Source: Paracoccus nototheniae
GTDB taxonomy: Bacteria > Pseudomonadota > Alphaproteobacteria > Rhodobacterales > Rhodobacteraceae
Direction of reading: 5' to 3'
Length of the DNA stretch: 64,000 nucleotides
Assembly: GCF_004335005.1 (NCBI RefSeq)
Contig: NZ_RQRT01000003.1
Location: forward strand, 62,001-126,000
Positions 1 through 57,807 of this stretch are shown one piece after another. How positions within the stretch are numbered: the stretch's first letter is position 1; each line of letters starts with the position of its first letter. A program made the translations under genes and the position numbers. The notes below the pieces were generated by a model. That model was not told the DNA's origin and did not search any database. It was given only the letters and a program-made list of their open reading frames with translations.

Positions 1-327
1 GTCGAAAATTATGAGCCGGAATCTGTTTCGGGTATCCAAGAAATCGGGATCAACGATTTTTCGGGAACACCACCGCAAAACAATTATCATATCAGCATGC
101 TGATCGATGAAGGGTTCATCAAGCCCACTAACGTTCAGAGCTTGGATCTCAGTTTTCACGTGCATGGGCTGACTATGAAAGGCCATCAGTTCATAAGCGC
201 GACAGAAGAAAAGACGGTATGGGACAAGACTAAAGCGTATTTCTCGGCAGCTGGTGGTTGGACAGTCGATGTGGTTCTTGCCTATGCGAAAGAAGAAGCG
301 ATTAGGCGACTAACAGGCGAGGCCTGA
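1..327 (+). CDS. DUF2513-like protein, 5' end outside window
   Basis: The reading frame is open from base 1 to the stop at 325-327, so about 108 C-terminal residues are visible and the start lies outside the window. The sequence has the DUF2513 layout: a YHISMLIDEGFI stretch (winged-helix-like), then LTMKGHQFI, then TVWDKTKAYF and a GGWTVDVVLAYAKEEAIRRL tail. DUF2513 proteins are small, of unknown function, and frequent in mobile elements and prophages. It runs opposite to the head genes and converges on the DUF2190 gene, with a terminator hairpin between them. It could be the distal cargo of the element or belong to its neighbour; the window does not show which. Confidence 0.75.
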   Translation, partial: VENYEPESVSGIQEIGINDFSGTPPQNNYHISMLIDEGFIKPTNVQSLDLSFHVHGLTMKGHQFISATEEKTVWDKTKAYFSAAGGWTVDVVLAYAKEEAIRRLTGEA

Positions 328-336
328 AATAAAACA

Positions 337-365
337 GCCGCCGGGGAACACGCAACCCCGGCGGC
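337..365 (-). terminator. intrinsic terminator closing the head-gene operon
   Basis: A perfect 10-bp stem (GCCGCCGGGG / CCCCGGCGGC) encloses a 9-base loop. Read on the minus strand it is followed by TGTTTTATTT, so it should stop transcription of the head genes just after the DUF2190 stop. It lies between convergent genes and may act in both directions. Confidence 0.75.
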
Positions 366-391
366 CGATCGTGCCCGTCGTGGGCCGATGG

Positions 392-721
392 TTAAGCGGT
401 CAGCAGCCGCACTTTGACGGCAGCGGTGTCGGCCGGTGCCGCTTCGATCGTATAGCCCAGCAGGGTGTTGCCGCTGGCGGTCGTGGTGGCCAGGCTGTCG
501 GTCGCGTTCCAATAGACCTTGGCGCCGAGGGTGAAGGCGTTAGCGGCCACCTTGGGCAGTTCCCAGCAGCCGACGACAGACACGTCGACGGGGGCGCCAG
601 CTGCAGCGTCGATCAGGGCAATGCCGCGGATGTCACCTGCGATCACCACGCCGCCCGACAGGACGGAAGCGGGGGCGGGAATGGTCAGGTTGTCACCGGC
701 TTGAATGAAGTTGCGGGCCAT
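392..721 (-). CDS. DUF2190 family head protein (capsid decoration/spike)
   Basis: The 109-residue product has the DUF2190 pattern: MARNFIQAGDNLTI at the start, a Gly/Val-rich beta region (SGGVVIAGDIRGIAL), an EGVW-like segment (VVGCWELPKVAANAF), then GAKVYWNATDSLAT and LLGYTIEAAP. Members are small beta-rich virion proteins beside capsid genes, thought to decorate or cement the head. It starts three bases after the gpW-like gene stop and is the last gene before the terminator at 337-365, so it is the distal gene of this head operon. Confidence 0.8.
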   Translation of the reverse strand: MARNFIQAGDNLTIPAPASVLSGGVVIAGDIRGIALIDAAAGAPVDVSVVGCWELPKVAANAFTLGAKVYWNATDSLATTTASGNTLLGYTIEAAPADTAAVKVRLLTA

Positions 722-724
722 GGG

Positions 725-940
725 TTAGAGTCCTTTCGAGGTCTGGAAGCGGACGATCGAAAGACGCCGCCGTTGAAGATTTGCGATCTCTGCGTCGATG
801 GCCGCCAGGGCGCGGGCCATCTCCGAGTCGCTTTTGAATTCCACGCGATCGCCGTTGGCATCGTGCACCGCACGTTCACCGCTGAAGCGCGCTTCCTGCA
901 GCCGGTCCCGCCATTCGCTCAGCTGTGCGGCGCTGGCCAT
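725..940 (-). CDS. gpW-like head-tail joining protein
   Basis: A 71-residue protein, MASAAQLSEWRDRLQEAR and onward. A helix, a short beta hairpin (ERAVHDANGDRVEFKSD) and a second helix (ALAAIDAEIANLQ) match the fold and length of lambda gpW (68 residues), the plug that completes the DNA-filled head before tail attachment. Its ATG shares one base with the capsid stop codon (TGATG), so translation is probably coupled. The same frame is open upstream to 1129, but that part is an arginine-rich shadow of the capsid gene, so the coupled ATG is preferred. Confidence 0.75.
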   Translation of the reverse strand: MASAAQLSEWRDRLQEARFSGERAVHDANGDRVEFKSDSEMARALAAIDAEIANLQRRRLSIVRFQTSKGL

Positions 941-2682
941 CAGGCCGCCCCGGTCGAGCGATAGGCCCCGCGCCAGTCGAGCCAGCCGCAACCGAAGTCG
1001 AGGAAGGCGCGATACTTCAGGCCCAGCGTGTCCCAGGCTTCCTGTCGCTGGATCTGCACGCCCTGCGCGCTGGACAGATAGGCATATTGCAGCGACGGGA
1101 CGGCAGCCGGGTCGGCCATGACGAACCACGTGTTGCCGATCAGACGAGGTTCCACGACCAGTTCCAGCTTCCCAGCCATCGGGTTCACGTCATGCGTTGT
1201 CGCGGCGTAGATCGACGCAAGCGCCTTCTCTGCGTGTGCTTCTAGGTCTGCACCCACGACCAGATAGCGCGGCTTCACGCTAAGGATGGTCCGACCGTCC
1301 AGACCCGTAATCGTCCGCATGACGCGACGGGCTTCAAGCAGCGCCGCAACGGCAGCTTCCGGGTCCAGCATATCCGACCCGGGACCCGTGGCGATGTTGC
1401 CCCGGCTGACATGGAAAACGGGCAGGCCATCCGACATAATCGGATTGTCAGCCAGCAGCTTCACCAGCTCGTCGGCTTCGGTCTGCGCCGCCGCCGCGCC
1501 CATCGCGCTGGTCATGTCGCCCAGAAGGCCCAGATCGTCGTCGATCAGCAGCTTGCGCGACACGCTGATCGCCCGGCCGAAGGTCTTCAGGCTCATGGTC
1601 TCGCCCGCCTCGGCGCGGCTGGTATGGGTGAACTCGCCATGTTCCGTCATCTCTTCCAGACGGCCCATTTCACCGATACGGATGGCGGTCGTAGTCTTGA
1701 AGTTCGGCAGCGTCCGTTGGCGGGCCAGAGCCTTCAGCGGGCTTTCGGCCGCTTGATAAGCCTGCGCCGCGACCTTGCCCATGGCGTTCGAAACCAGCAG
1801 CGGGAAGTCGGACGCGCTCAGGCTCCGCGAAAAGACCTCATCAGCGGACATGCCGCGAGTGCTGACGCCCGAACGCTGAAGGGCATCGGCCGCCATCTCG
1901 CGTAGGGTCACGTTCACATATTCTCGGCTGGCTTCGGGCAGGGCTCCACCAGCCATCCGGAAGGCCAGCGCATCAGCGGCGCGGGTCTGAATCTCGGCAG
2001 GGTTGCCGTTTTCGCGGGTGACGCGGATCGGCGGTGCCGCACGCTGAGTCATGGCGTCGCGGGCAGCTCTGCGCACATCGTCGTCGGTGACGGCTTCAGC
2101 GCCCAGATCGGCGCCCCATTCGTCGGACAGATTGCAGGCGCCGCGCAGCGTGTCGATCAGCGCGTTTCGGGTTTCGATGTCAAAAGGCATGGTGTCACTC
2201 CGTCGGGTTGCATTGGGGTCAGCAGGGATTGCGACAAGCGACACTTCTTTGAGGTGCCAGCGGGTTGCAGTTTTCGTTCTTTGGCCGGTTTCATCTTTGC
2301 CCTCGGCCCATGCCTCGACCGAATAGCCGGCGCTGAAGGCGCGCAGCGTGCCGTCTTGGACGCGCTGGCGGATCGGCAGCAGGTCGTCTGCACCGCTGAA
2401 GCGCAGCCGGGCCAGTACTGTGTCGCCGTCGATGCGGACATCATGCACCCGGCCGATCGTCTCGCGTGCCGTGGGGCGGTGATCCGCCAGAAGCGGCCAG
2501 TCGTCTCCCGACAGCACCAGCCCGGCGGGGTCGAGGATCTCGATATAAAGTCCGCGAGCATCGCGCCGGGTGACTGGGTGGCGGGTTGCGATGACGGCTT
2601 CGATTTCGAGGGACTCAGGGCTGAAGCTGCCGGATGCCGGGGCTTCGCGCGTCAGCATGCCGCCATGGGCAAGAATGTTCAT
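940..2682 (-). CDS. prohead protease-major capsid fusion protein
   Basis: One 580-residue chain carries two head functions. Residues about 1-165 look like an HK97-type (U35) prohead protease: IEAVIATRHPVTR, a LLADHRP stretch, LRAFSAGYSVEAW with the likely nucleophile serine, and the family's WHLKEVSLVAIPADPNA ending. A linker follows from about residue 170. Residues about 250-580 resemble Mu gpT-like or HK97-fold major capsid proteins (NFKTTTAIRIGEMGRLEEM, FGRAISVSRKLLIDDDLG, PRYLVVGADLEAHAEKAL, DFGCGWLDWRGAYRS). Such fusions are known in elements with GpA-type terminases. The ATG overlaps the portal stop by four bases. Self-cleavage presumably releases the capsid domain; that is inferred. 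Confidence 0.85.
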   Translation of the reverse strand: MNILAHGGMLTREAPASGSFSPESLEIEAVIATRHPVTRRDARGLYIEILDPAGLVLSGDDWPLLADHRPTARETIGRVHDVRIDGDTVLARLRFSGADDLLPIRQRVQDGTLRAFSAGYSVEAWAEGKDETGQRTKTATRWHLKEVSLVAIPADPNATRRSDTMPFDIETRNALIDTLRGACNLSDEWGADLGAEAVTDDDVRRAARDAMTQRAAPPIRVTRENGNPAEIQTRAADALAFRMAGGALPEASREYVNVTLREMAADALQRSGVSTRGMSADEVFSRSLSASDFPLLVSNAMGKVAAQAYQAAESPLKALARQRTLPNFKTTTAIRIGEMGRLEEMTEHGEFTHTSRAEAGETMSLKTFGRAISVSRKLLIDDDLGLLGDMTSAMGAAAAQTEADELVKLLADNPIMSDGLPVFHVSRGNIATGPGSDMLDPEAAVAALLEARRVMRTITGLDGRTILSVKPRYLVVGADLEAHAEKALASIYAATTHDVNPMAGKLELVVEPRLIGNTWFVMADPAAVPSLQYAYLSSAQGVQIQRQEAWDTLGLKYRAFLDFGCGWLDWRGAYRSTGAA

Positions 2683-4028
2683 GCTTGGATTCCGTTTTGT
2701 TCTTTCGGCTTTTCGCCAAAGGTAAGACCCATCGCGGCTTCGCGCTGCCGATCGGCTGCAATTTCCGCATCGACCTTGGCCACGTCATAGCCGATCTGCG
2801 CGACCGCTTGCCGGCGGCTGATGAGGCCCATTGCCAGCATCTCTCGTGTTGCCTTGGCGTCCGACTCTGGGTCGACCCACTGAGGTTTCGGAAAGTGAAC
2901 CTCCAGCGGTGTGGCGGGATCGGCCCAGTCGCTACCGCGCAGACTTTCCAGAAGTTGCCAACGCTGCCAAATCGGCCCGTAAAAGGCGGGAACCAATAGG
3001 GCGTGCTGCATGGCTTCGATCCGGCTGCGAAACTGTATCAGCGCGGTACGCGCGCTGCTGTAGTTCACACCGCGCATATCGCCCGACAGCAGGAACTCGG
3101 GAATCTGCAAACCGGCTGCGATCTGCCGCAGCGACACGGCCACCAGTTCGACAGATTGCGCCATCTGCTGGGGCGTCGTGAACTTCACATCCCAGCCCGC
3201 CGGCAAGACGCGCATCGTGCCGGGTTCAAGCGACACGTCCATTGGGTTTTCGCCCTCGCCAAGCGGATTGGTCGCGGTGCCGTTCAGATCGACCAAGAAG
3301 CCGACGAGCATCGCCTGAATCTTGGCGGTCACCTGCAGAGCGTCCTGCAGTTGCGACAGTTCGTTAAGCGGCAGGATGACAGGCGCGAACCATGACAAGC
3401 CGCGGGTTTGCCCTGCGCCCTGTCGGCGGAAGATATGCAGCACGTCCACTGCCTCGACCCGTACGGGCGCCCGGAAGGTCTGATATTGGTCAGTCGGACG
3501 GGCAGGGCGGAAGTGATACGCGACAGGCAGATCGTCCGCGTTGTATTCGATGCCCGCGGCTATGTAGCGCCCGCCGCTCAGTTCGACGCTGTAAGCCTCG
3601 TCCAGCTGTTCAGCTGGGACATGCTGCAGGCGCAGGGCGCCGCTGTCGTCACTGCGCAGGATAATCAGCGCTTCGCCGTCCGTTGCCAGCGAGTCGATCA
3701 TCTCACCTTCCAGGGCGGGCAGGCGCGTCCGTGCAGCCCATTCGGCAAAGGCAGTGTCGATCTCTTCCGTGCCGCTGGTCAGTGTCGCGCCATAGCCCAC
3801 AAGGGCGGTGCGCAGGATCTCCGCAGCATTGGTGGCGGTAGGATCATTGAACCGCAGATGCCGGGCTCGGCCGCGCACTTGGGCCGCGCCTGCCAGAACT
3901 TCGCTACCCGTCGCACCAAAAGCCGGGGTCGAGGGCCAACGCTTACCGCTGGCGCCTTCCAGCATCCGAACCTGCGAAATAGATGGCGGATCTGCGCGGC
4001 GGCTCATAAGGCGCGACCAGATGCCCAT
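2679..4028 (-). CDS. lambda-family portal protein (GpB-like)
   Basis: The 449-residue product matches the lambda GpB portal family, the dodecameric ring at the unique capsid vertex through which DNA is pumped. Visible landmarks are an N-terminal RAR-HLRFNDPTATNAAEILRT region, the DGEALIIL strand, HIFRRQGAGQTRGLSWFAPV, the FLLSGDMRGVNYSSARTAL segment typical of this family, and a late FPKPQWVDPESDAKATREML stretch. The length is somewhat below lambda gpB (533). It starts three bases after the upstream MerR-like gene and overlaps the capsid fusion gene by four bases. Confidence 0.9.
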   Translation of the reverse strand: MGIWSRLMSRRADPPSISQVRMLEGASGKRWPSTPAFGATGSEVLAGAAQVRGRARHLRFNDPTATNAAEILRTALVGYGATLTSGTEEIDTAFAEWAARTRLPALEGEMIDSLATDGEALIILRSDDSGALRLQHVPAEQLDEAYSVELSGGRYIAAGIEYNADDLPVAYHFRPARPTDQYQTFRAPVRVEAVDVLHIFRRQGAGQTRGLSWFAPVILPLNELSQLQDALQVTAKIQAMLVGFLVDLNGTATNPLGEGENPMDVSLEPGTMRVLPAGWDVKFTTPQQMAQSVELVAVSLRQIAAGLQIPEFLLSGDMRGVNYSSARTALIQFRSRIEAMQHALLVPAFYGPIWQRWQLLESLRGSDWADPATPLEVHFPKPQWVDPESDAKATREMLAMGLISRRQAVAQIGYDVAKVDAEIAADRQREAAMGLTFGEKPKEQNGIQA

Positions 4029-4031
4029 GGG

Positions 4032-4562
4032 TCAGGCTTCCTGTCCGGCTAGGATTGAAAGCACCGGCCGCACCAACGTCGTCACAGGCAGAAGGACGGT
4101 CTGCGAGATGACGTTTGCGTGGTTCCAGTCGTCGAACCATTCAAATCGTTCGGTCAAGCCGACTTCCTCAAAACTGCCCATTTTCGCATCGGTGAATGCC
4201 CACGGGTGCGTGTAGATATCCAGCCGGATAAAGATCTGCACCCCGTCAGAAACACGTTGGACATTTTTTTCGTAGGCGAACGTTCCCTGCGTATTGCCGA
4301 TCGGACGCAGTTTCGAATTGATCGCAGAGACCTGCCCGGATGAGCCGCCGTCCAACGACAGGCTGATAGCTACGACGGCAGCTGCAATGTCCGCAGGTGA
4401 GTACGAGATCTCTTTTCCTTGAGAGGTTGCAGCGCTCGACAGGATTAAACCGCGATCTCGCATGGTTCGCGCCCGAGAATATAAGCGTGCGGGATCTTGA
4501 TTGCCGCGTGTTCTAGCAACTGCATCCGTAATCTGGCGTAAAGTGGCGGTCGGATAATCCAT
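4032..4562 (-). CDS. MerR-like putative regulator inside the head gene cluster
   Basis: A 176-residue protein starting MDYPTATLRQITDAVARTRG. I do not recognise a named family. Residues about 6-70 read like a winged helix of the MerR type: TLRQITDAVA, ARLYSRARTMRDRGLIL, then ISYSPADIAAAVVAISLSL. The C-terminal 100 residues are beta-rich (QIFIRLDIYTHPW, FEWFDDWNHANVISQTVLLP) and could be a ligand or oligomer domain. The start is chosen by a GGAG ribosome site; the frame is open to 4643 but that extension would run through the repeat cluster at 4597-4644. It sits where lambda has gpW, between large terminase and portal, so a structural role is the alternative. Confidence 0.5.
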   Translation of the reverse strand: MDYPTATLRQITDAVARTRGNQDPARLYSRARTMRDRGLILSSAATSQGKEISYSPADIAAAVVAISLSLDGGSSGQVSAINSKLRPIGNTQGTFAYEKNVQRVSDGVQIFIRLDIYTHPWAFTDAKMGSFEEVGLTERFEWFDDWNHANVISQTVLLPVTTLVRPVLSILAGQEA

Positions 4563-4596
4563 TGAAGGGCTCCATTCTCTTTGCACCGTTATGCAT

Positions 4597-4644
4597 CCTG
4601 CGTCATGCGGACGCAAGTTGTTTCTTGCGTCTAGCTGACGCAAG
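4597..4644. promoter_or_regulatory. four alternating GACGCAAG repeats, candidate operator
   Basis: Four 8-base elements alternate in orientation: CCTGCGTC 4597-4604 (one mismatch), GACGCAAG 4610-4617, CTTGCGTC 4624-4631, GACGCAAG 4637-4644. Start-to-start spacing is 13, 14 and 13 bases. They lie 35-82 bases upstream of the MerR-like gene. On the minus strand one copy supplies a possible -35 (TTGCGT) with a 17-base spacer to CATAAC. An autoregulatory operator is the simplest reading. Confidence 0.6.
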
Positions 4645-4693
4645 TGCTAGTTCATAAAAATGGGCACAGTGGGGTGTTCGGGCATCTGAAGAC

Positions 4694-4724
4694 GCAGCAG
4701 GCCGGGCGCGGATCGGCCTGCTGC
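4694..4724. repeat. 11-bp perfect inverted repeat, hairpin
   Basis: GCAGCAGGCCG and CGGCCTGCTGC pair across a 9-base loop. There is no T-run on either side, so it is not a standard intrinsic terminator. It lies between the divergent MerR-like gene and the plus-strand cassette and may insulate the two. Confidence 0.6.
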
Positions 4725-4806
4725 ACACAAGAAGGCTCCAAGGGGGCTTCATCTCCCCCGCGCGGCGCGGTCGGTGACCGGGGTTCAGAGCCCGGGGCGC
4801 TGGCAA

Positions 4807-4839
4807 GGGGCGGCAGCTTTGTCATCGGCCTGCCGCCCC
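4807..4839. repeat. 10-bp perfect inverted repeat before the 4868 gene
   Basis: GGGGCGGCAG and CTGCCGCCCC pair across a 13-base loop, ending 28 bases before the GTG start at 4868. In an RNA leader this hairpin would lie just upstream of the ribosome site AAGGA (4856-4860). Role unknown. Confidence 0.5.
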
Positions 4840-4867
4840 GATCATATTCAGCACCAAGGAATGCACC

Positions 4868-5062
4868 GTGTCGCCAGCTGAACAACGCTATGAGGTCGCC
4901 CAAATCTTCGCAGAATGCCGCGCCAAGGGCGTGCCGATGCACCTGGCCTGCTTTGCCGCGCTGCGCTGGTTCGAGATGCAGAGGATTGCCCCGCCGCATT
5001 CTATTCTCGATTGGCTGGGCGCGGTGCCTACGGAACATTGGCGCCCGACGCGGGTGCATTAA
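4868..5062 (+). CDS. small hypothetical protein of the reverse cassette
   Basis: A 64-residue product beginning at GTG with AAGGA seven bases upstream; the nearby ATG at 4861 is in another frame. The sequence is helical with an acidic/basic N-terminus (SPAEQRYEVAQIFAECRAKG) followed by CFAALRWFEMQRIAPP. No family is recognised. It runs opposite to the head and packaging genes on both sides and is the first of three small plus-strand genes that end against the large terminase stop. Such reverse cassettes in phage late regions are often accessory cargo (morons). Coding status rests on the ribosome site and normal amino acid composition only. Confidence 0.5.
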   Translation: MSPAEQRYEVAQIFAECRAKGVPMHLACFAALRWFEMQRIAPPHSILDWLGAVPTEHWRPTRVH

Positions 5063-5066
5063 CTGT

Positions 5067-5095
5067 CACGTTAAACGTGCATTGCACTTTATAAT
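5067..5095 (+). promoter_or_regulatory. sigma70-like promoter with overlapping palindromic operator
   Basis: A perfect -10 hexamer TATAAT is at 5090-5095. The region where the -35 should lie (5067-5079) is a perfect palindrome, CACGTT-A-AACGTG. It sits 62 bases upstream of the ATG at 5157. A repressor on the palindrome would block polymerase. No second copy of the palindrome was seen. Confidence 0.55.
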
Positions 5096-5156
5096 CAATC
5101 TGACGTTGAAGCGCGAAATACCGCATAGTGATTCTATCGAAACGAAAGGAATCGCT

Positions 5157-5360
5157 ATGGAATGCAAAGTTCAGGACTGGTCGAAAGACTGGTCGAATCA
5201 GACCGCTCTCGGACGCATGGAGGCCGCCCACGATCTTGCGGCAGTACGGCAGACAGACAACATGCTACTGTTGATAAGAAAGATCCGCGCCGCTGCGGCG
5301 GACCCTGCTGGATTTGGGGTAGGGTATCTTTCTGCCTTGGCTCAAGCCGCTACGCGTTAA
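5157..5360 (+). CDS. small hypothetical protein, second gene of the reverse cassette
   Basis: A 67-residue product. The frame is open from 4644, but the ATG at 5157 has a good ribosome site (AAAGGA, seven bases away) and lies directly downstream of the TATAAT promoter, so the short form is chosen. It begins MECKVQDWSKDWSNQTAL and has an amphipathic helix region ALGRMEAAHDLAAVRQTDNMLLLIRKIRAAA and a small hydrophobic end. No family is recognised. It is charged, short and separately promoted, which fits a regulator or an accessory protein, but no function can be assigned. Confidence 0.55.
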   Translation: MECKVQDWSKDWSNQTALGRMEAAHDLAAVRQTDNMLLLIRKIRAAAADPAGFGVGYLSALAQAATR

Positions 5361-5386
5361 TATTATTCAATTTATAGGAGATGCTC

Positions 5387-5644
5387 ATGAAAATTTCATT
5401 CGAATTGAGTGGGACTGTCATTTTCGCAACGGAAATGGATTTTATTCCACCCATCGGCTACAAAGCCACATTTCGGACGATCACTTATAAAAAAGGGCTT
5501 TACGCTGGGTCTCTGATATCAGTTGACGTTGGCTCTATTGATTCGCCGAGCCTAGAATTTGAGGGCGATAAGCTTGTGGAAGTAATAATATCCGCGAATG
5601 GATATGAACTTCATGAGAAAGGCCCAAAGCCTCCCGAAGATTAA
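5387..5644 (+). CDS. small hypothetical protein, AT-richer than neighbours
   Basis: An 85-residue product beginning MKISFELSGTVIFATEM. An ATG at 5381 touches the AGGAG site, so the in-frame ATG at 5387, six bases after AGGAG, is the better start. The protein is predominantly beta: alternating FELSGTVIF, YKATFRTITY, SLISVDVGSI, LVEVIISANGYEL. Codon use is visibly AT-richer (ATA, AAA, TTT) than the packaging genes around it, a sign of separate origin. Its stop overlaps the end of the large terminase gene by four bases on the opposite strand. No family recognised. Confidence 0.6.
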   Translation: MKISFELSGTVIFATEMDFIPPIGYKATFRTITYKKGLYAGSLISVDVGSIDSPSLEFEGDKLVEVIISANGYELHEKGPKPPED

Positions 5645-7392
5645 CCCCCCAACCACTTGGACCTGATTACGCGCGGCGGTGCCTTCGGTGCTGCCGCGCT
5701 TGCCAATTCAGCCGCCCGCAGATCCACACGCTGCCCGATCAGCTGACGCACGGCAAGGGCGTAGACAGAGGCGTCTAGCGTCTCGGCACGTTTGCCCTTG
5801 ATCCGTTCAAAGCGCGCTTCCGGTTTCCCCCTCACATACCGCACCACGCGCCGCTCACTGGCCAGCTGTTCGAAATAGATAGGCGCTAGGTCATCCGAGA
5901 AGCGCACACCCTGATTCCGACTGACCCGCGCAAAGAGCTGCGACTTGGCCGCATCGGAGCCCACAAGCCATAGGTGCTGATTGCCAGACTTGGCCAGCAG
6001 TGCACGGCTGAAGCCTGCGACCCCCTTGATGGGCACAACGCGACGGCCGAACCGGGGCTTACAGAAAGCCATCACGCTCTCCAAATGCCCGCCATCACCA
6101 GAGTCCACCGCGCAGGCATCGATGCGGATCGTGCCGCCGTTCGGGTGCGGCCACGTCTCACGCAGCAGCGAGTCCAGATCCTGCCAGACCGCTTCACCGT
6201 CAATCGGCCCAAAGATGCAGCGGTGATCGAGCATGAGCCAATCGTTTTCAGTGTGGCCCATCAAGACGATCTCGATCCGATCATCTTGGCAGTCGACGCC
6301 CGCCGTGATCCACAGCACCTCCGGCGGCAGGCGGTCCAACCCAAAGGCTTCGCGGCGGTTGAACAGCTCGTGCTCGTCCAGATCCTCGCCTTCGGTTTTC
6401 CACGGTTGGCCCAGGATGGTGTTGACGAACGGCTGCAGAGTCTCCGGACTGCGCTTGGCCTGCAGGAACTCGGCGGCTAGCTTGCCCCAGCGGGCATTGT
6501 GGTGCGGGCTGATCAGGCAGTTAATCCGGAAGCCCGCATGCCCTTTCACGTGGGGCGTCGTTGCCCGCCAGCGCCCGGACGCCACCATGGCGGGCTTGTG
6601 CCGTTCCTCGATTACGCAGCCGCAACCGGGGCAGGTCCATGCCGCCTTATCCGGTTCGCCATCAGGCCAGCTGATCTGAGCCCATTCGATCTCATGGAAG
6701 CCGCCGCACTCCGGGCAAAGCACCTCATAGATCCGCTGGTCGGACTCACCGTACATGCGGGTGATTGGGCCGAAGTCGAAAATTGGAGTTGAGCCCGCCA
6801 GGATCTTCCGGTCACGAAACGTCTGGGTCCGCATTTCGGCCAGCTTGATCGGATCGCCTTCCTGCGTCGACTCGTAGCCGTCGATCTCGTCCATGGCCAA
6901 GAATCGTGTCGTGTGCCTGCGCAGGTTGCGCGGGCTTTTCGCGGCCAGAAACTTCAGACTGCCGCCGGCAAAGCGACGCGCTAGCATCGTGCTGCGCCCG
7001 GCCTCGTCCGCATCATCCGACAGCAGCCCACGCAGGGCAGGCGATGCCTCGAACATGGACTCAAGCTCGACTGAATAGTCCCGTGCATCATCGGCCGTCG
7101 GCTGCAGTGCGATGATTGGTGCAGGCGAATTGGCCACGAAGCTGGCTATCGTTGCTGACAGCCATTGCGTGTATCCAATCCGCGCGCCTTTCATGATCGT
7201 CAGACGTTCGATTTCCGGATCTTCGATCGCATCGCACCATCCGCGCTGAAACGGCCAAAGGTCCATGCGTCCAGGAAGGGCCGAGGCGCTGGCAGGAATC
7301 CTGATGGTCGACTCGATCCATCTCGCCAGTGGGACATTGGGTGGCGGGCGTAGCGCCTGAAGCGCATTTTTGCGGACGATCTCAATCCCCAT
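5641..7392 (-). CDS. terminase large subunit, GpA family
   Basis: The 583-residue protein is the ATP-driven packaging motor and nuclease of the lambda GpA family. Visible parts: LWPFQRGWCDAIED near residue 45, the ATP-binding MKGARIGYTQ at 67-76 that replaces a classic Walker A in this family, Walker B FLAMDEID at 164-171, a zinc ribbon with CPEC at 226-229 and CPGC at 254-257, then the nuclease start VLWITAGVDCQDDRIEI. It overlaps the small terminase gene by 11 bases, as expected for a packaging operon. Lambda-type terminases cut at cos sites; the cos of this element is not identified. Confidence 0.92.
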   Translation of the reverse strand: MGIEIVRKNALQALRPPPNVPLARWIESTIRIPASASALPGRMDLWPFQRGWCDAIEDPEIERLTIMKGARIGYTQWLSATIASFVANSPAPIIALQPTADDARDYSVELESMFEASPALRGLLSDDADEAGRSTMLARRFAGGSLKFLAAKSPRNLRRHTTRFLAMDEIDGYESTQEGDPIKLAEMRTQTFRDRKILAGSTPIFDFGPITRMYGESDQRIYEVLCPECGGFHEIEWAQISWPDGEPDKAAWTCPGCGCVIEERHKPAMVASGRWRATTPHVKGHAGFRINCLISPHHNARWGKLAAEFLQAKRSPETLQPFVNTILGQPWKTEGEDLDEHELFNRREAFGLDRLPPEVLWITAGVDCQDDRIEIVLMGHTENDWLMLDHRCIFGPIDGEAVWQDLDSLLRETWPHPNGGTIRIDACAVDSGDGGHLESVMAFCKPRFGRRVVPIKGVAGFSRALLAKSGNQHLWLVGSDAAKSQLFARVSRNQGVRFSDDLAPIYFEQLASERRVVRYVRGKPEARFERIKGKRAETLDASVYALAVRQLIGQRVDLRAAELASAAAPKAPPRVIRSKWLGG

Positions 7393-7972
7393 CTGCGAGG
7401 CCCTCCAGCGCCTTTTTGATCTCGCGATCTAGCGTGGCGATGTCGGTTGCAGTCAGGTGCGGAAGAGCGGCGCCGCAGCGGGACGGAACCGCTAGAAGCG
7501 CATTGCGGACGTCGCGCATCAGGTTCGACCATTCTCGGCTGACGGCTGCGACCTCGACCAGGTCACCTGACTCGCGCTTCACGCGGGTTTCTTCCTTATC
7601 CGCCTGTGCACGGGTCAGTCGTAACTTCTCGGCCCTCAGATCGTCGCCGCCATCCGGTGGGCGCCCAGCGCGCGCCGCGTGTTCCTGCAGCCGCGCGATA
7701 TATGCCGCGGTCGATCTGCGGACATCCCAGCGGGCCCGGCCCGCCTTCACAAGCACGCCGTCGACCGTTTTCGTCCTGACCTGCGAGGTGGCCAAGTTGA
7801 GGAAGGCGGCGATCTCAGGTTGCGTCATGGCGCCGGGAATGGCGTTTCTGCTTTCTGTGCTGTTCGCTGGCAGGGCTTCCGGCCCTTCGATAGGTGCGAG
7901 GTGCGAGGCAGGGCTGTCGAGGCTCAGAAGGTCATCTAGCGAGTACGGGTCAGGCGATGGCGTAGGATGCAT
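7382..7972 (-). CDS. terminase small subunit, Nu1-like, with DPYSLDDLL tail motif
   Basis: A 196-residue protein. Residues about 47-75 (MTQPEIAAFLNLATSQVRTK) form a helix-turn-helix like lambda Nu1, followed by a WDVRRSTAAYIARLQEH segment and the DKEETRVKRESGDLVEV and IATLDREIKKALEGL region common to small terminase subunits. It would recognise the packaging site and recruit the large subunit. Unusually it has a 45-residue N-terminal extension with DPYSLDDLL at residues 8-16, a motif shared with the integrase and the primase-helicase. The start has GAAGGG upstream. Confidence 0.8.
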   Translation of the reverse strand: MHPTPSPDPYSLDDLLSLDSPASHLAPIEGPEALPANSTESRNAIPGAMTQPEIAAFLNLATSQVRTKTVDGVLVKAGRARWDVRRSTAAYIARLQEHAARAGRPPDGGDDLRAEKLRLTRAQADKEETRVKRESGDLVEVAAVSREWSNLMRDVRNALLAVPSRCGAALPHLTATDIATLDREIKKALEGLADGD

Positions 7973-8116
7973 TTACTCGGCCCTTCATGTCTGAAAAATT
8001 CTGCAAACCGTCTTTCTTCGCGGTCAGCGTCCCCCGCGGCAGGCCGGCAGGGGGAAGGACCCATCGGGACGCATAGCCTGCGCGGTCGCCCGGCTGCGAT
8101 GCGACAGGATCAATCT

Positions 8117-8339
8117 GTGACCCCTGTGACCCCTGTGACCCCAATTTGCCTATATTATGGATTCGACCCCTGCTGCTGGTGCCCAGTAGGCTGTGGGCTG
8201 CCACTGGCTGCTTATAGGTCTTCTTTAGATATTCAGGGGTCACAGGGGTCACACTATAGCTAAGACACTGTATAGAATTGGATAATAAGTGACCCCTCAC
8301 ACCGCTAGAGGGGGTCACCAAGGGGTCACGGGGGGTCAC
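8117..8339. repeat. nine GTGACCCC iterons, candidate replication origin
   Basis: Nine copies of GTGACCCC or its complement lie in the 363-base gap between the primase-helicase and small terminase genes. Three are direct with a 9-base period (8117, 8126, 8135), two inverted with a 9-base period (8236, 8245), one direct (8289) and three inverted (8311, 8322, 8332). Between the clusters are AT-rich stretches, 8143-8160 and 8251-8290. The last copy overlaps the helicase stop codon. Satellite origins of the P4 and SaPI types have this build: iterons bound by the adjacent primase-helicase around an AT-rich melting zone. Confidence 0.7.
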
Positions 8340-10471
8340 AGTTCGATCCTGTTGCATTGACGCACCCAGACCTTGCCATTGCGGCTGTGCTGCCTGATCC
8401 AGCCCCGATGCTTCAGGATGCGGGATATCCGTTGCAGATCGGCCTGCTTCTGCCGCTCTATGGGAACACCGATGCGGATAAGCAGGTCGCGCGCAGTGAT
8501 CTTGTCCACCGGCTCGTCAAAGCCGTCCTGCCCATCGTCGCCGTCCAGATGGTCAGCAATGGCGCTTTCCCACGGGTCTTCCTCTCGCACCGACTCCTGT
8601 TCGGCCCATGCAAGACGTTCGGTCTCAGATGATAGGTGCCACCGCTCGCCAGCGGTGAACGCTGCCACTGCCTCGGCGAACAGCTGGTCGCGATCTCGGG
8701 CAAGTCCGATGGTGTCCAGCATGTCGCCGCATGTGACCGGCCAGAAGCGCCGGCCCCCGGTCATGTCGCGTAGGAATGCAGCCTCGTTCGTTGTGCCGAT
8801 AAACACCGTCTGGCGCGGCACGATGTCTGCGCGGCGCGCGTAGGGTGCACGGATCTCATCGTCGCCCCGGGTCAGGAAGGATTTCAGGTCTTCCGCCTCG
8901 GCCTTTCTCGATGGGGCAAGCTCGGCCAGCTCCACGAGCCAATGTCCGCGGAGATATAGACCCGCCTCTTTCGCGCCCTCTCTGATCGACGGCATGTTGT
9001 CGCCAGTCCATTCGCCACCCACGATGCGGCAAGCCGTGCTCTTCCCGATGCCTTGGGGCCCAGCAAGCACAAGCACGTGGTCATGCTTGCAGCCGGGACG
9101 CATGACGCGGGCCACCATAGCGATCAGGAAGGCGCGGCCGACGGCGCGAACGTAGGGGGAGTCCGCCACGCCCAGATAGCGCGTCAGCCAGGTGTCCAAT
9201 CGCATCTCACCATCATGGGCGAGCACGGCAAGCCAATCCTTGATCGGGTGAAACTGGTTCATCTGCGCGACTGCCCGCACGGCTTCTGCCGTCATGCCCC
9301 CGACGTTGTGCATCCCCGCTTGTTCGATCGCTACGCGGAACAAGGTCAGGTCAGACTCTTGGATCAGCCCGCCTTGCCACTCATCCCGCCCAGTCATGGC
9401 GTTGTGCCGAAGTCCGAAGCCTTTGGCGGCGTTCACCTGCTGGAGGTAGCAGATGGCATTATGCATCGTCGCCTTGGGCGCGCCAAATCCGGTAACCTGG
9501 ATTGTCTTATCCTCGATGCCGTGACCGATCGCTGGCAGATCGTCAAAGTCGCTGGCATCAACTGCAAAAGGCAGGGCGATCGGCTTGGCCAGGCCATCTG
9601 ACCAGCCATGTGCGAAGGTGCTGCGCGCCTCGCGATCAGACAGGCCACAAGTCAGCCCGGCCGCCACAAGCAGTTCCTCGGCCTGATCGCGCGTCAGGGC
9701 ACCGTGAGCGCCGACACCACCCGCCCACATGCTGGCGTTGTTCAAAGCGCTTTGACGCGTACCTTCACCTGCGTCGGCCACCCTGGCAGCGTGCGCGTCC
9801 AGCTCGCCTCGGGCCCATTCCATGTGCGATGGCGAGGCCTCCCGCACCTCTACGGCCCCACGGTCTGGTTTAGCGGGCGGGGTGAGCGCCTGGGGCCACT
9901 CGGGCAGCACAGTGTCCCGGGTCAGGTCCAGCCCATGAACGACGTACCGCTTGCCGTCCTTTAGGCTGTCGGGGGCAATGACAAACCCGCCATTGTTCCG
10001 GACATCCAGCCCAGGGCCGATCTGGCCAACCGTCGCCTTCAGTCCCGGCTTATACTTGAGAAAGACATGCCAGCCGCCGCTGGGGGAACCGCTTCGGACG
10101 GGGCTCATGACGTGGATGTCCGGAAAGCCCAGCTGATTCAGGCTCGCCAAGCCGTCCTTTCCGTTCTTCACGTCGACATCCAGGACGCTAATGCCGTTCC
10201 GTTCGCCCGTGATAAGCGCGACCCGGGATTCCGGCCATTGGCGCCACCAACTGCGGATAGTGGTCGCGTCAGCCGTCGCGCGTGTCGGGAACGCGGCTAT
10301 CGGCTTCCAGCCGTCGCCGTCGCCCCAGTCGCGGACAGGACATACAGCAAGCCCCCGCGATGCGAGGGATAGGGCAACATCCAGATTTGTTCGGAGGGGT
10401 GGAGTGATCGCAAGCAGATCGTCGAGATTATAAGGGTCTTGAACGGACCCCGATTGGAGAGTATCTTTCAT
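8336..10471 (-). CDS. primase-polymerase / VapE-type helicase replication protein
   Basis: A 711-residue replication protein. Residues about 25-220 form a primase-polymerase domain with metal ligands in SVLDVDVKNGKDG (about 95-107), the GGWHVF motif (133-138) and LDVRNNGGFVIAPDS. The C-terminal half is VapE-like superfamily 3 helicase: Walker A GPQGIGKST at 471-479, HWLVELAELAPSRKAE, FLTRGDDEIRAPYARR, then VFIGTTNEAAFLRDMTGGRRFWPV, and a terminal winged-helix region. The ATG at 10471 has AGAGG upstream; the frame is open further but lacks a site. Residues 12-20 are DPYNLDDLL, shared with two other proteins of the element. It should initiate replication at the adjacent iterons. Confidence 0.88.
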   Translation of the reverse strand: MKDTLQSGSVQDPYNLDDLLAITPPLRTNLDVALSLASRGLAVCPVRDWGDGDGWKPIAAFPTRATADATTIRSWWRQWPESRVALITGERNGISVLDVDVKNGKDGLASLNQLGFPDIHVMSPVRSGSPSGGWHVFLKYKPGLKATVGQIGPGLDVRNNGGFVIAPDSLKDGKRYVVHGLDLTRDTVLPEWPQALTPPAKPDRGAVEVREASPSHMEWARGELDAHAARVADAGEGTRQSALNNASMWAGGVGAHGALTRDQAEELLVAAGLTCGLSDREARSTFAHGWSDGLAKPIALPFAVDASDFDDLPAIGHGIEDKTIQVTGFGAPKATMHNAICYLQQVNAAKGFGLRHNAMTGRDEWQGGLIQESDLTLFRVAIEQAGMHNVGGMTAEAVRAVAQMNQFHPIKDWLAVLAHDGEMRLDTWLTRYLGVADSPYVRAVGRAFLIAMVARVMRPGCKHDHVLVLAGPQGIGKSTACRIVGGEWTGDNMPSIREGAKEAGLYLRGHWLVELAELAPSRKAEAEDLKSFLTRGDDEIRAPYARRADIVPRQTVFIGTTNEAAFLRDMTGGRRFWPVTCGDMLDTIGLARDRDQLFAEAVAAFTAGERWHLSSETERLAWAEQESVREEDPWESAIADHLDGDDGQDGFDEPVDKITARDLLIRIGVPIERQKQADLQRISRILKHRGWIRQHSRNGKVWVRQCNRIEL

Positions 10472-10544
10472 TTGAACCTCTTGAAGCCGTCGGGTGTGCC
10501 GCCCGGCGGCTTCTTCTATTTCCAGATCATTCCAGAAATGAAGA

Positions 10545-10574
10545 AGCCGCATCAACCAGTATGGCGATGCGGCT
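10545..10574 (-). terminator. hairpin downstream of the integrase gene
   Basis: AGCCGCATC and GATGCGGCT form a 9-bp stem with a 12-base loop. On the minus strand TCTTCATTTC follows, a weak T-rich tail. It lies 44 bases beyond the integrase stop and upstream of the primase-helicase start, so it could separate the two transcripts. Confidence 0.5.
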
Positions 10575-10617
10575 AAGTTATTGCAAGATAAGATGAATTT
10601 CACTTAAACTGTGAAAC

Positions 10618-11823
10618 TCAGCGCAGAAGTTCGTCCAAGTTATACGGGTCGTCGACCTTCAAAGCCTTGTCGAGAAAATCATTGAACCACGCCACCATGC
10701 GCACCCGCTCCGGCCAATACTCTGCATGGTTATAGCTGGCCCTGACGCCATTGCCCGGGACGTGGGCCAGCTGCCGTTCGATCGCGTCCCCTGACCACAG
10801 CCCGGACTCGTTTAGAACCGTCGATGCGAGAGACCGCATGCCGTGCACGGTGACGCGGCTGCGGTAGCCCATCCGGTAAAGAGCAAAGATATAGGTGTTC
10901 TGACTCTGGGGTTTGCCGCGCAGGCCCGGCACGATCCATGGGCTGCCGCCCGCGTGCTGCTTCAGTTCCTTTAGAATGGCTTGGGCTTGCGGGGGCAGGG
11001 GGATCATATGGTCGCGGGCCATCTTCATACGATCGCCGGGGATCCGCCAGACGTCGCCGCTGATCTCGTCCCAAGTGCCGAACCGCAATTCGTTCGTCCG
11101 CGTCATGGTGCGCATGATCAGTTCAAGCCCAAGGCGCGTCTGAGGTTCGCCGTCATAGGCCCGCAGCTTGGCCATGAACTCGCCCAGTTCGTTCTGCTTT
11201 ATCGCGGCCATGTGCTTGACTCGAGGCGACGGCTTCAGGGCGCCGGTCAGGTCCGCGGCGGGATCGCGATCGGCGCGGCCGGTGGCAATGGCATAGCGCA
11301 TCACCGCGCCAACAGACTGCCGCACGCGCTTGGCCACGTCGACTGCCCCGCGGTCTTCGATGGTCCGCAGCATCTTTAGGATCTTCTGGGCCGACAGCTC
11401 GCGGATCGGCTCATCGCCGAACGCCGGGTATACGTCACCCTTGAAGCGAGAAATAACGCGCAGCGCATGGGCGGGTGTCCATGCCGCTTCCTGTGCCTTC
11501 AGCCATTCGTCGGCCACCGTCCGGAAGGTGACGCCGGGGCCCTCTGTGGCCGGTGCCTCTAGCGCGGCTTTGTTGGCGCTGGGATCCAGCCCGCCGGCCA
11601 GAACTTCCCGTGCACGCTCTCGCATCGCCCGCGCCTGGGCAAGCCTGACAGCTGGGAAGACGCCCAATGCGAGTGTCTTCTGTTTCCCGCCAAATCGATA
11701 GCTCCAGCGCCAATATTTTGAGCCGTTGGGCTGAACCAGCAAGAAGAGTCCGCCCCCGTCCGACAGCTTGCGCGGCTTCGACTCGGCCTTCGCCGCGCGG
11801 CAGGCGACATCTGTAAGGGCCAT
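10618..11823 (-). CDS. int: tyrosine integrase, P4 type
   Basis: The 401-residue protein has the N-terminal arm-binding DUF4102-like domain (KLSDGGGLFLLV, YRFGGKQKTLALGVFP), a central SAM-like core-binding region and a C-terminal catalytic domain. Catalytic residues appear as Arg242 (MTRTNELR), Lys267, His327 and Arg330 (VHGMR), His354 (QLAHV) and Tyr364 (ASYNHAEYW). P4-type integrases use tRNA 3' ends; this gene starts 164 bases from the tRNA-Ile 3' end. GGGAGA precedes the ATG. The last ten residues, DPYNLDELLR, extend beyond the normal catalytic domain and repeat a motif of the primase-helicase and small terminase. Confidence 0.93.
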   Translation of the reverse strand: MALTDVACRAAKAESKPRKLSDGGGLFLLVQPNGSKYWRWSYRFGGKQKTLALGVFPAVRLAQARAMRERAREVLAGGLDPSANKAALEAPATEGPGVTFRTVADEWLKAQEAAWTPAHALRVISRFKGDVYPAFGDEPIRELSAQKILKMLRTIEDRGAVDVAKRVRQSVGAVMRYAIATGRADRDPAADLTGALKPSPRVKHMAAIKQNELGEFMAKLRAYDGEPQTRLGLELIMRTMTRTNELRFGTWDEISGDVWRIPGDRMKMARDHMIPLPPQAQAILKELKQHAGGSPWIVPGLRGKPQSQNTYIFALYRMGYRSRVTVHGMRSLASTVLNESGLWSGDAIERQLAHVPGNGVRASYNHAEYWPERVRMVAWFNDFLDKALKVDDPYNLDELLR

Positions 11824-11986
11824 CAGAATCTCCCGTTGGTATCTGGAGATTTCACTTTGATGGTATCTGCGTTGGTATCAAGCTGGATGATTGAGGACGC
11901 ATGAGGACCAAGAAAAGCGGCTAGCATTGAAATTGCTGCGTTTTCCGTGTTCATGAGGACGTATGGGGATGCATGAAAAGGGGGGT
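11824..11986. promoter_or_regulatory. attachment-site arm region with two repeat families
   Basis: Between the integrase start and the tRNA lie two sets of short direct repeats: TGGTATC at 11837, 11861 and 11873, and TGAGGAC at 11892, 11902 and 11954. Arm-type integrase or excisionase sites are the likely meaning. The crossover core should be within the tRNA 3' end (from 11987); the second copy was not found in the window, so it lies to the left of base 1. Confidence 0.55.
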
Positions 11987-12063
11987 TGGTAGGCCCGGCA
12001 GGACTTGAACCCGCAACCAAGGCGTTATGAGCGCCCTGCTCTGACCAGTTGAGCTACAGGCCC
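11987..12063 (-). tRNA. tRNA-Ile(CAU), AUA-decoding, integration site
   Basis: A complete cloverleaf can be drawn on the minus strand, 77 bases with an encoded CCA. The acceptor is GGGCCTG with CGGGCCT, the anticodon loop CTCATAA gives CAU, and the T arm is GCGGG-TTCAAGT-CCTGC. The CGCCTTGGTTGC variable region resembles the tRNA-Ile2 class, whose C34 is changed to lysidine, more than elongator tRNA-Met. The gene's 3' end faces the integrase, so the element inserted into and rebuilt it. Confidence 0.88.
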
Positions 12064-56535: not shown

Positions 56536-57807
56536 TCAGGCCTGGACCAGGTGCTTGATGGCAGCGGTGTCGCCCAGCTCGCCGTCGAAACGGATCAGGC
56601 CGGCGATGCCGAGGTTCGGCCAGAAGCGCTCGCGCAGCACGCCGATGATGGGCGAGCCGACCTTGCGGACGAAATACTTGCCGAAATCACCGAAGATCAT
56701 GGTGCGGTTGCCCGTGGCAATGGGCGCCATGGCCTGGTTGATGCGGTAGCGATAGCCCAGCAGGGTGCCGGGCACGCCGTTCTGGATGTCGCCGCCAGAC
56801 CAGATGTACCGGCCCTCGCCATCCTTCAGCTTGCGGATCGAGGCGAGCGTCAGGTCATTGAACATGAACCCGACCTTGGGCGCGCCGCGATATGCCGGGT
56901 TGACCGAGTGGATCAGGTCGATGATCTCGTCGGAGGTCAGCGCGGTCGCCGAGGCGGCGGTGCGGCCGAGCGAGGACGCGGTGACGACGCCGTGCGGATC
57001 GTCGACACCATCGCCGATCGTCAGTTCGCGGTTCGCGGTGCGGCCCAGGCGCTCACCCAGCAGGCTTCCCAGCAGCTGTTCGAAGTTGAAGATCGAGTCC
57101 TGCCCCAGCTCCATCGACCAGCGGATGAACTCGGTATCGTAGACATAGGCGTCCAGCGCCTTTTGCCCGAAGGTGACGTCCTTGCCACCATCGTCAACCA
57201 GATCCGCGCCCTCGACGTGCTTCTCGGCGTTGATGCCGGTGTCGTCCACGGTCGGGATCAGGATGCGATTGCCCGACGAGGTGTTCATCGCGGTGGTGAC
57301 GGACTCGTCGTACATCGGCCCCCAGGCCGCCATCGAGATGATGATCTGGTTCGCCAGCTCGACCGGGACGGTATAGCCGCCGCCTGCCTGAGTCAGGGTG
57401 CTTTGCGCGCGCATCTCTGCGGACGCCTGCGCTCCGGCGCGCAGGACGGCGCGCTCTTCGGTCGACAGTTCGGTGATGTCGCCGCCGCGGGTGATGAAGC
57501 GATGAAAGGCCTGGCGATAGGTCAGTTCGTCGCCATCATCGGTGCCCCGGCCTTCGCCGTCGGACAGGGGGCGCTGGCGGCCGCGCTGCTCGTCGTCCTG
57601 GGCGGCCGCCCGGCTTTCAATCTCGGCCAAGCGTTGTTCACGCTTGATCAGGGTCTCGACGCGGTCGAATTCAGCCATGATCGTGTCGTGGCGAGTGTCC
57701 AGCTCGGCCGCACGGGCCTCGTCGGTGTTGCCCTTGATTTCATCCAGCGCGGAGCGGGCCTCGGCCATCAGCCGGGCGCGCTTTTCAATCAGCTCTTTCA
57801 GGGTCAT
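56536..57807 (-). CDS. HK97-family major capsid protein
   Basis: A 423-residue capsid precursor. Residues 1-100 are a coiled delta scaffold (MTLKELIEKRARLMAEARSALDEIKG, DRVETLIKREQRLAEIESRAAAQ) that the protease removes. The mature part begins near 110-120 and shows STLTQAGGGYTVPVELANQIIISMAAWGPMYDES, FGQKALDAYVYDTEFIRWSMELGQDS, LGERLGRTANRELTIGDG, the HK97 fold signature YRGAPKVGFMFNDLTLASIRKLKDGEGRYIW, and FGDFGKYFVRKVG. AAGGAGG lies five bases before the ATG. Confidence 0.95.
   Translation of the reverse strand: MTLKELIEKRARLMAEARSALDEIKGNTDEARAAELDTRHDTIMAEFDRVETLIKREQRLAEIESRAAAQDDEQRGRQRPLSDGEGRGTDDGDELTYRQAFHRFITRGGDITELSTEERAVLRAGAQASAEMRAQSTLTQAGGGYTVPVELANQIIISMAAWGPMYDESVTTAMNTSSGNRILIPTVDDTGINAEKHVEGADLVDDGGKDVTFGQKALDAYVYDTEFIRWSMELGQDSIFNFEQLLGSLLGERLGRTANRELTIGDGVDDPHGVVTASSLGRTAASATALTSDEIIDLIHSVNPAYRGAPKVGFMFNDLTLASIRKLKDGEGRYIWSGGDIQNGVPGTLLGYRYRINQAMAPIATGNRTMIFGDFGKYFVRKVGSPIIGVLRERFWPNLGIAGLIRFDGELGDTAAIKHLVQA

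Follow-up and report, generated by a model that had tools for sequence, protein, structure and literature searches.

Capsid-forming phage-inducible chromosomal islands (cf-PICIs) are integrated phage satellites on the 10- to 15-kb scale that encode their own capsid, protease, portal, connectors, small terminase (TerS) and large terminase (TerL), and no tails. Passages of PMC13230959 compare 900 published cf-PICIs by their PF05065 capsids and, together with passages of PMC10690885, describe an HNH endonuclease carried by these islands. The former passages also describe satellite-plasmids of Vibrio (PISP and cf-PISP) and place another capsid family, PF03864, in Vibrio PISPs and published PICIs. 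Here, we analyze a 64,000-nucleotide stretch of a 4.6-Mb draft genome of Paracoccus nototheniae (contig NZ_RQRT01000003.1, positions 62,001 to 126,000; hereafter, the window), one end of which holds an element with a comparable head-only build. We consider it very probable that this element is an integrated capsid-forming phage satellite, belonging to an old, diversified and separate Rhodobacteraceae lineage that borrows the tails of helper phages. Helper dependence and tail borrowing are what its gene content suggests.

The original prediction, made from the DNA sequence without database searches, described an integrase, a primase-helicase with iterons, both terminase subunits, a portal, a protease-capsid fusion, a gpW-like connector and a DUF2190 protein, and family scans confirm every one of them on the minus strand. 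From the tRNA inward, the order is a tyrosine integrase (window positions 10618-11823; PF13356, PF22022 and PF00589), a replicase with Prim-Pol and VapE-like helicase domains (8336-10471, with an alternative upstream GTG start possible at 10603; PF09250 and PF05272), TerS (7382-7972; phrog_57, E = 4.5e-29), a lambda GpA-type TerL (5641-7392; PF05876 and PF20454), an accessory slot, a 176-amino-acid gene, a portal of the lambda GpB family (2679-4028; PF05136 and TIGR01539), a fused S78 prohead protease and major capsid protein (940-2682; NCBIfam NF045541, E = 2.8e-180, PF25209 and PF04586), a 71-amino-acid gpW-like head-tail joining protein (725-940; NF047331 and phrog_2545, named Ad1 in PHROG), and a DUF2190 capsid cement or decoration protein (392-721; PF09956 and phrog_122). 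The predicted combination of a lambda GpA/GpB head set with a fused capsid thus stands, as does the element's possession of its own capsid, protease, portal, connector, TerS and TerL. The joiner genes of three relatives match gpW in Pfam. A sequence search of the Protein Data Bank (PDB) returned a single weak match for the capsid (9jod) and none for TerL. The head operon ends, as proposed, in an intrinsic minus-strand terminator (335-367; -27.5 kcal/mol, z = -3.6), which a pattern scan missed owing to its loop limit and folding recovered. It is followed by an opposite-strand DUF2513 gene (1-327, plus strand; PF10711, E = 4.4e-19) whose start lies about 40 bases beyond the window's left edge.

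Between the replicase and TerS lies a putative replication origin, an array of nine copies of an 8-mer in both orientations (GTGACCCC/GGGGTCAC; 8115-8341) around an AT-rich stretch. Two hundred Markov resamplings gave a mean of 0.38 copies and a maximum of 3. Arrays of at least six copies accompany 8 of 13 Prim-Pol/VapE replicases versus 1 of 13 other replicases (Fisher P = 0.011). The copies may alternatively be read as cosB repeats rather than iterons, a reading that the association with Prim-Pol/VapE replicases disfavors.

The element is bounded by attachment (att) sites in the form of a 20-bp exact direct repeat, GGGGTTGGTAGGCCCGGCAG. The right copy, attR (11982-12001), overlaps the 3' end of a minus-strand tRNA gene with a CAT anticodon (11987-12063; ARAGORN), the integration target; the left copy, the second tRNA 3' duplicate that the original prediction expected beyond the window, lies at window positions -227 to -208 when the contig is read past the left edge. 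Measured from the left copy to the tRNA, the element spans about 12.2 kb rather than the predicted 11.6 kb. The prediction of a tRNA anchor holds, although ARAGORN assigns the gene as tRNA-Met(CAT) and not tRNA-Ile; a tRNA-Ile2(CAU), we presume, would also fit the sequence. From base 1 to the left att copy there is no tail, lysis or phage-type repressor gene, a finding that would have refuted the original prediction, and beyond this copy lie ordinary host-type genes (roles assigned by eye). A genome of the same genus, G674, preserves the empty site: the joined flanks align to it without a break over the junction (85% identity, query 305-820). For the other relatives listed in the empty-site search, mostly the conserved tRNA side alone matched.

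This build recurs across the family. With the capsid fusion as a query over 394 family genomes, 97 genomes match at E ≤ 1e-20, nearly all capsid matches being open frames, and by our count of the listed matches, capsids of the window class (at least 245 bits) occur in 45 of the 394. Within the window's genus, matches at E ≤ 1e-60 occur in 42 of 125 genomes, of which the same count places 22 in the window class. The related loci of this class that we read number 72 (52 plus 20) and come mostly from Rhodobacteraceae; several are cut by contig ends, and L008 and L132 share an identical capsid. Their common gene order is TerS-TerL-slot-portal-capsid-joiner-cement. Direct repeats bound 35 of these relatives, nearly all beginning at a tRNA end, although the repeat of L093 is not from a tRNA and about a dozen closing repeats are merely 15 to 17 bp. 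Together with the window's own, the 36 closed elements have a median length of 11.9 kb (quartiles, 11.1 to 12.5; range, 9.9 to 17.3 kb). The tail-less head block that the original prediction proposed to look for in other genomes is therefore found repeatedly, in att-closed elements of the same build.

Family scans and gene calls detect no recognizable tail, lysis, HNH or phage-repressor gene in the window element, in agreement with the absence of visible tail and lysis genes predicted earlier; it thus has none of the tail, lysis and repressor modules of a complete temperate phage. A set of 19 probes for tail, lysis and head-tail attachment genes, taken from the Rhodobacter phage RcOceanus and the Paracoccus phage Psul1, matches only 2 of the 72 related loci versus all 13 of the tailed-prophage controls fetched, in which the matches lie after the cement gene. 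It is the recurrence of an att-closed, head-only build, set against tail genes in every tailed control, that supports a satellite. PHROGs, Pfam and PADLOC were used to scan the 123 genes left without a homology label in the elements of 21 relatives; none of the commonest 25 of 104 PHROG families or the commonest 25 of 39 Pfam families is a tail family, and the commonest 25 of 43 PADLOC families are mostly single matches. A separate scan covered 20 single proteins, of which 19 came from relatives and 1 from the window. With integrases and long replicases excluded, the largest leftovers are a GmrSD-type gene of 563 amino acids, apparent IS21 genes (both labels assigned by size) and genes of 361 and 317 amino acids, so no gene of tape-measure size remains among the unknowns.

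A lambda-type temperate phage stripped of its genes for tail, lysis and control could in principle leave a similar remnant, and some tailed phages of Rhodobacteraceae do carry homologous head genes, at about 34% identity. Locus L084, which combines a satellite-type capsid with tail gene fragments upstream and no TerL match and looks like a damaged recombinant, indicates that mixed and damaged copies occur. However, the six head and packaging genes are under purifying selection. Compared with L118, the closest relative, the window shows ratios of nonsynonymous to synonymous substitution rates (dN/dS) of 0.08 for TerS, 0.03 for TerL, 0.06 for the portal, 0.17 for the capsid fusion, 0.15 for the joiner and 0.11 for the cement gene, and the genes are open, so that neither the relaxed selection nor the broken genes of a prophage remnant are seen. 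In a capsid-domain tree, built by a quick search from 73 satellite and 16 tailed rows and with some long branches, the satellite/tailed label needs 2 changes, versus a mean of 14.9 for shuffled labels, and 0 of 500 shuffles were as low. The satellite capsids thus group apart from those of tailed phages and may have a single origin. Gene order differs as well: in RcOceanus, Psul1 and the Rhodobacter phage RcKvothe, TerL and the portal are separated by a gpW-like or connector gene, whereas the satellite elements place the joiner gene after the capsid. Decay is disfavored because of the purifying selection and the separate capsid grouping; adding the element size and the recurrence of the head-only build, its size and its order in 35 att-closed relatives, we rejected a prophage remnant, which is already largely refuted and now very improbable.

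Several observations weigh against a tail-borrowing satellite. Neither particles, induction nor a helper has been observed. In the genome that carries the window, the element's portal is the only one of lambda type, and there is hence no resident lambda-type helper; this genome does contain four HK97-type capsid matches and one tape-measure-like match that falls below the family cutoff. Both loci matched by the probes also count here, L084 with fragments of three tail genes and L095 with one weak head-tail attachment match, and an unusual tail could escape probes derived from two phages, although most of the leftover genes are smaller than a tape measure would require. In the att-closed relative L088, a 236-amino-acid protein matches the PHROG annotation "minor tail protein" (E = 1.2e-43), the one clear finding that contradicts a strict absence of tail genes. 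The L088 gene in question lies between the replication region and TerL, and a cement-like gene lies upstream of the portal. As for helpers, passages of PMC11389934 report that the cf-PICI EcCIEDL933 is not mobilized at a detectable frequency by its host's own prophages. Elsewhere in the window, an HK97-type capsid gene (56548-57381, minus strand; PF05065, 158 bits) belongs to a gene transfer agent or another prophage.

Another reading is a self-sufficient element that needs no helper, relying on an unrecognized very short tail or another route of entry. A few genes lack a known function, namely, the DUF2513 gene and an 87-amino-acid open reading frame (ORF), and the cement and joiner proteins could conceivably cap the head. 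Those two genes, however, have no tblastn match in the related loci mapped, and no gene of adhesin, tape-measure or lysis size is left without assignment in the window element. We give such self-sufficiency very little credence. For a capsid-forming satellite, a phage signal would relieve a MerR-type regulator, upon which the element would excise and replicate from its iterons. Its own TerS and TerL would package the approximately 12-kb element DNA into its own heads, and a helper phage would supply lysis and the tails, joined via the joiner protein.

The candidate for this regulator is the 176-amino-acid gene (4032-4562, minus strand). It has no family match of its own, but similar-sized genes lie directly upstream of the portal in most relatives, and 5 of 20 aligned members of this gene family match MerR_1 in Pfam. 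An AlphaFold2 model of the protein (predicted local distance difference test score [pLDDT], 88) has as its best PDB match the MerR-type regulator CvkR (E = 8.6e-3). The alignment and the modeled winged-helix fold indicate that this is probably the element's MerR-type control gene, in which case the earlier claim that no lysogeny-control gene is present is probably wrong. Family scans of the window element found no Stl-like or AlpA-like control gene.

The accessory, or cargo, slot lies between TerL and this gene (4644-5640). The spacing from TerL to the portal varies from 1.4 to 3.5 kb among relatives. In the window, the slot holds the 87-amino-acid ORF (5381-5644, plus strand), which has no assigned function and no PHROG match. 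The slot of L060 holds a 563-amino-acid gene (8825-10513), by its size probably a GmrSD-type restriction gene, pointing to possible antiphage cargo.

The elements of L061 (15.0 kb) and L086 appear, from gene size, to hold an IS21-type insertion. L007 is a 12,094-base Falsigemmobacter contig without an integrase match, apparently circular because it carries a 45-base terminal repeat, and is possibly an episomal form of the satellite. The L072-L090 group carries nearly identical satellite capsids over many family genomes (17 tree rows with very short branches), which suggests recent spread between genera; one of its members is closed at 17.3 kb. L050 and L065, both in genome G285, are 98% alike in TerS and 95% alike in TerL, yet their capsids are only 65% identical, and head modules therefore seem to recombine separately from packaging modules.

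Three unrelated proteins of the window element bear one short acidic-hydrophobic peptide: DPYNLDELL at the C terminus of the integrase (10624-10650), DPYNLDDLL near the N terminus of the replicase (10412-10438) and DPYSLDDLL near the N terminus of TerS (7925-7951), all on the minus strand. Our literature search found no description of such a feature. A DNA-level repeat was rejected, as the codons differ among the copies; the exact DNA pattern for the peptide occurs twice in the whole genome, both times within the element. In relatives, the peptides of replicase and TerS are alike within an element and differ between elements (DVFGDLWG and DIFGDLMG in L006, DDFEDLLG and DEFDDLLG in L007, TLADLLGP and ELADLLGP in L050, and DFDDLLGG and EFDDLLGG in L121). 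A scan of 16 elements found further copies inside the replicase in 7 of them and, at the threshold used, none in element proteins beyond the replicase, TerS and some integrases; four off-target matches fell in other reading frames or host genes. Window-type integrases carry the peptide at the C terminus in 4 of 5 elements, and in the fifth, L133, replicase and TerS show no peptide match with each other. By eye, the first 70 residues of TerS from RcOceanus and Psul1 contain no such match. Among viral contigs, the motif was found in four stretches, one of which is the window element's own contig.

We infer that a common docking partner of the peptide probably links replication, packaging and integration; it is proposed because so short a peptide is common to the replicase and TerS and, in the window, also to the integrase. 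For 26 elements with both proteins readable (L052 was excluded beforehand as a near-copy of L051), own-pair similarity of replicase and TerS peptides sums to 672 versus a permuted mean of 551 (standard deviation, 21), and 0 of 300,000 permutations were as high, again 0 after two TerS-sharing elements were dropped, with the proviso that the permutations leave relatedness in and that the peptide was found after looking. That proviso favors the possible, if unlikely, reading that the peptide arose by accident in flexible acidic linkers, or is left over from a peptide duplication, and is no functional docking site. The weak matches of L061, L065 and L124, whose own TerS ranks 12th to 13th of 26, point the same way. 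By our reading, the best own-pair match is the peptide in 14 of the 26 elements. Against an accident, windows taken from these proteins as controls are no more alike within elements than between them (28,713 of 50,000 permutations reach the observed value), and the codons of the window's three copies differ. Moreover, the replicases of L005 and L118 are 69% identical, yet their peptides, NIFGDLMG and NPYDLTDLL, each resemble that of their own TerS. We read this motif swap as doing much of the work of a control for relatedness. Conversely, the window replicase has no BLAST match to that of L118 (E ≤ 1e-3), yet the two elements share the TerS type and the peptide.

More specifically, the peptide might be an element-specific address tag by which TerS, the replicase and some integrases dock at a single hub, possibly the element's procapsid through its portal or protease domain, although we regard this as rather doubtful. 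Mantel tests of motif type against the similarity of eight proteins or domains in 15 elements reached the observed value in 31 (portal), 64 (joiner), 144 (protease domain), 678 (cement) and 1,231 (capsid domain) of 5,000 permutations, with TerL, the TerS body and the replicase body at chance level; given eight tests, the portal, joiner and protease signal is weak, as an accident would also have it. If the tag were real, the head would be coupled to replication or might even carry the replicase and integrase into the next cell. In any case, the covarying peptide gives a starting point for asking how a satellite could join replication, packaging and integration.

Compared with known systems, the element works, on our best reading, like a cf-PICI yet fails the cf-PICI markers tested. 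Its capsid does not match PF05065 (PF25209, PF10124 and PF04586 only, at E ≤ 0.01), and no HNH endonuclease was found in its packaging module among the ten window proteins scanned. In their stead are a PF25209/gpT-like protease-capsid fusion, a GpA terminase, a GpB portal and a MerR-type gene. The predicted capsid-forming island build thus holds in its att-bounded, head-only architecture and its 35 relatives, but we do not file the element under the cf-PICI name because of the capsid and HNH results. According to passages of PMC13230959, the satellite-plasmids of Vibrio likewise carry head genes without tails, and PISP has a MerR-like regulator and capsid protein E; they differ in being episomal with parA/repA, in their PF05065 or PF03864 capsids and in their confinement to Vibrio. 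The circular L007 contig, with no integrase match, offers a further likeness. Passages of PMC10690885 describe MulchRoom and MiniFlayer of Streptomyces as satellites that likewise encode terminases, a portal, a capsid and a head-tail adapter of their own, but that have direct terminal repeats, virulent helpers and unrelated hosts. RcOceanus, RcKvothe and Psul1 share the GpA-type terminase, the lambda-type portal and the fused protease-capsid, with 31 to 34% capsid identity to the window, but have full tail modules, lysis genes (in RcOceanus and Psul1) and the joiner between TerL and the portal. Staphylococcus aureus pathogenicity islands (SaPIs), which are PICIs, resemble the window element in having a replicase beside an iteron array; they differ in that they remodel helper capsids, whereas the window element encodes its own.

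Our literature search found no satellite described in Rhodobacterales or Alphaproteobacteria, consistent with the original claim for Rhodobacteraceae; that search covered neither the original description of cf-PICIs nor the SatelliteFinder survey, and an earlier listing there is possible. The passages of PMC11578231 seen in that search do not mention satellites. Since window-class capsids occur in 45 of 394 genomes, such satellites could be a common and overlooked route of gene transfer in an ecologically important family. The element would add to the capsid-forming satellites a lambda-type head lineage in Alphaproteobacteria, and, as none was found described there, tail stealing probably evolved on more occasions than the PF05065 lineage would indicate.

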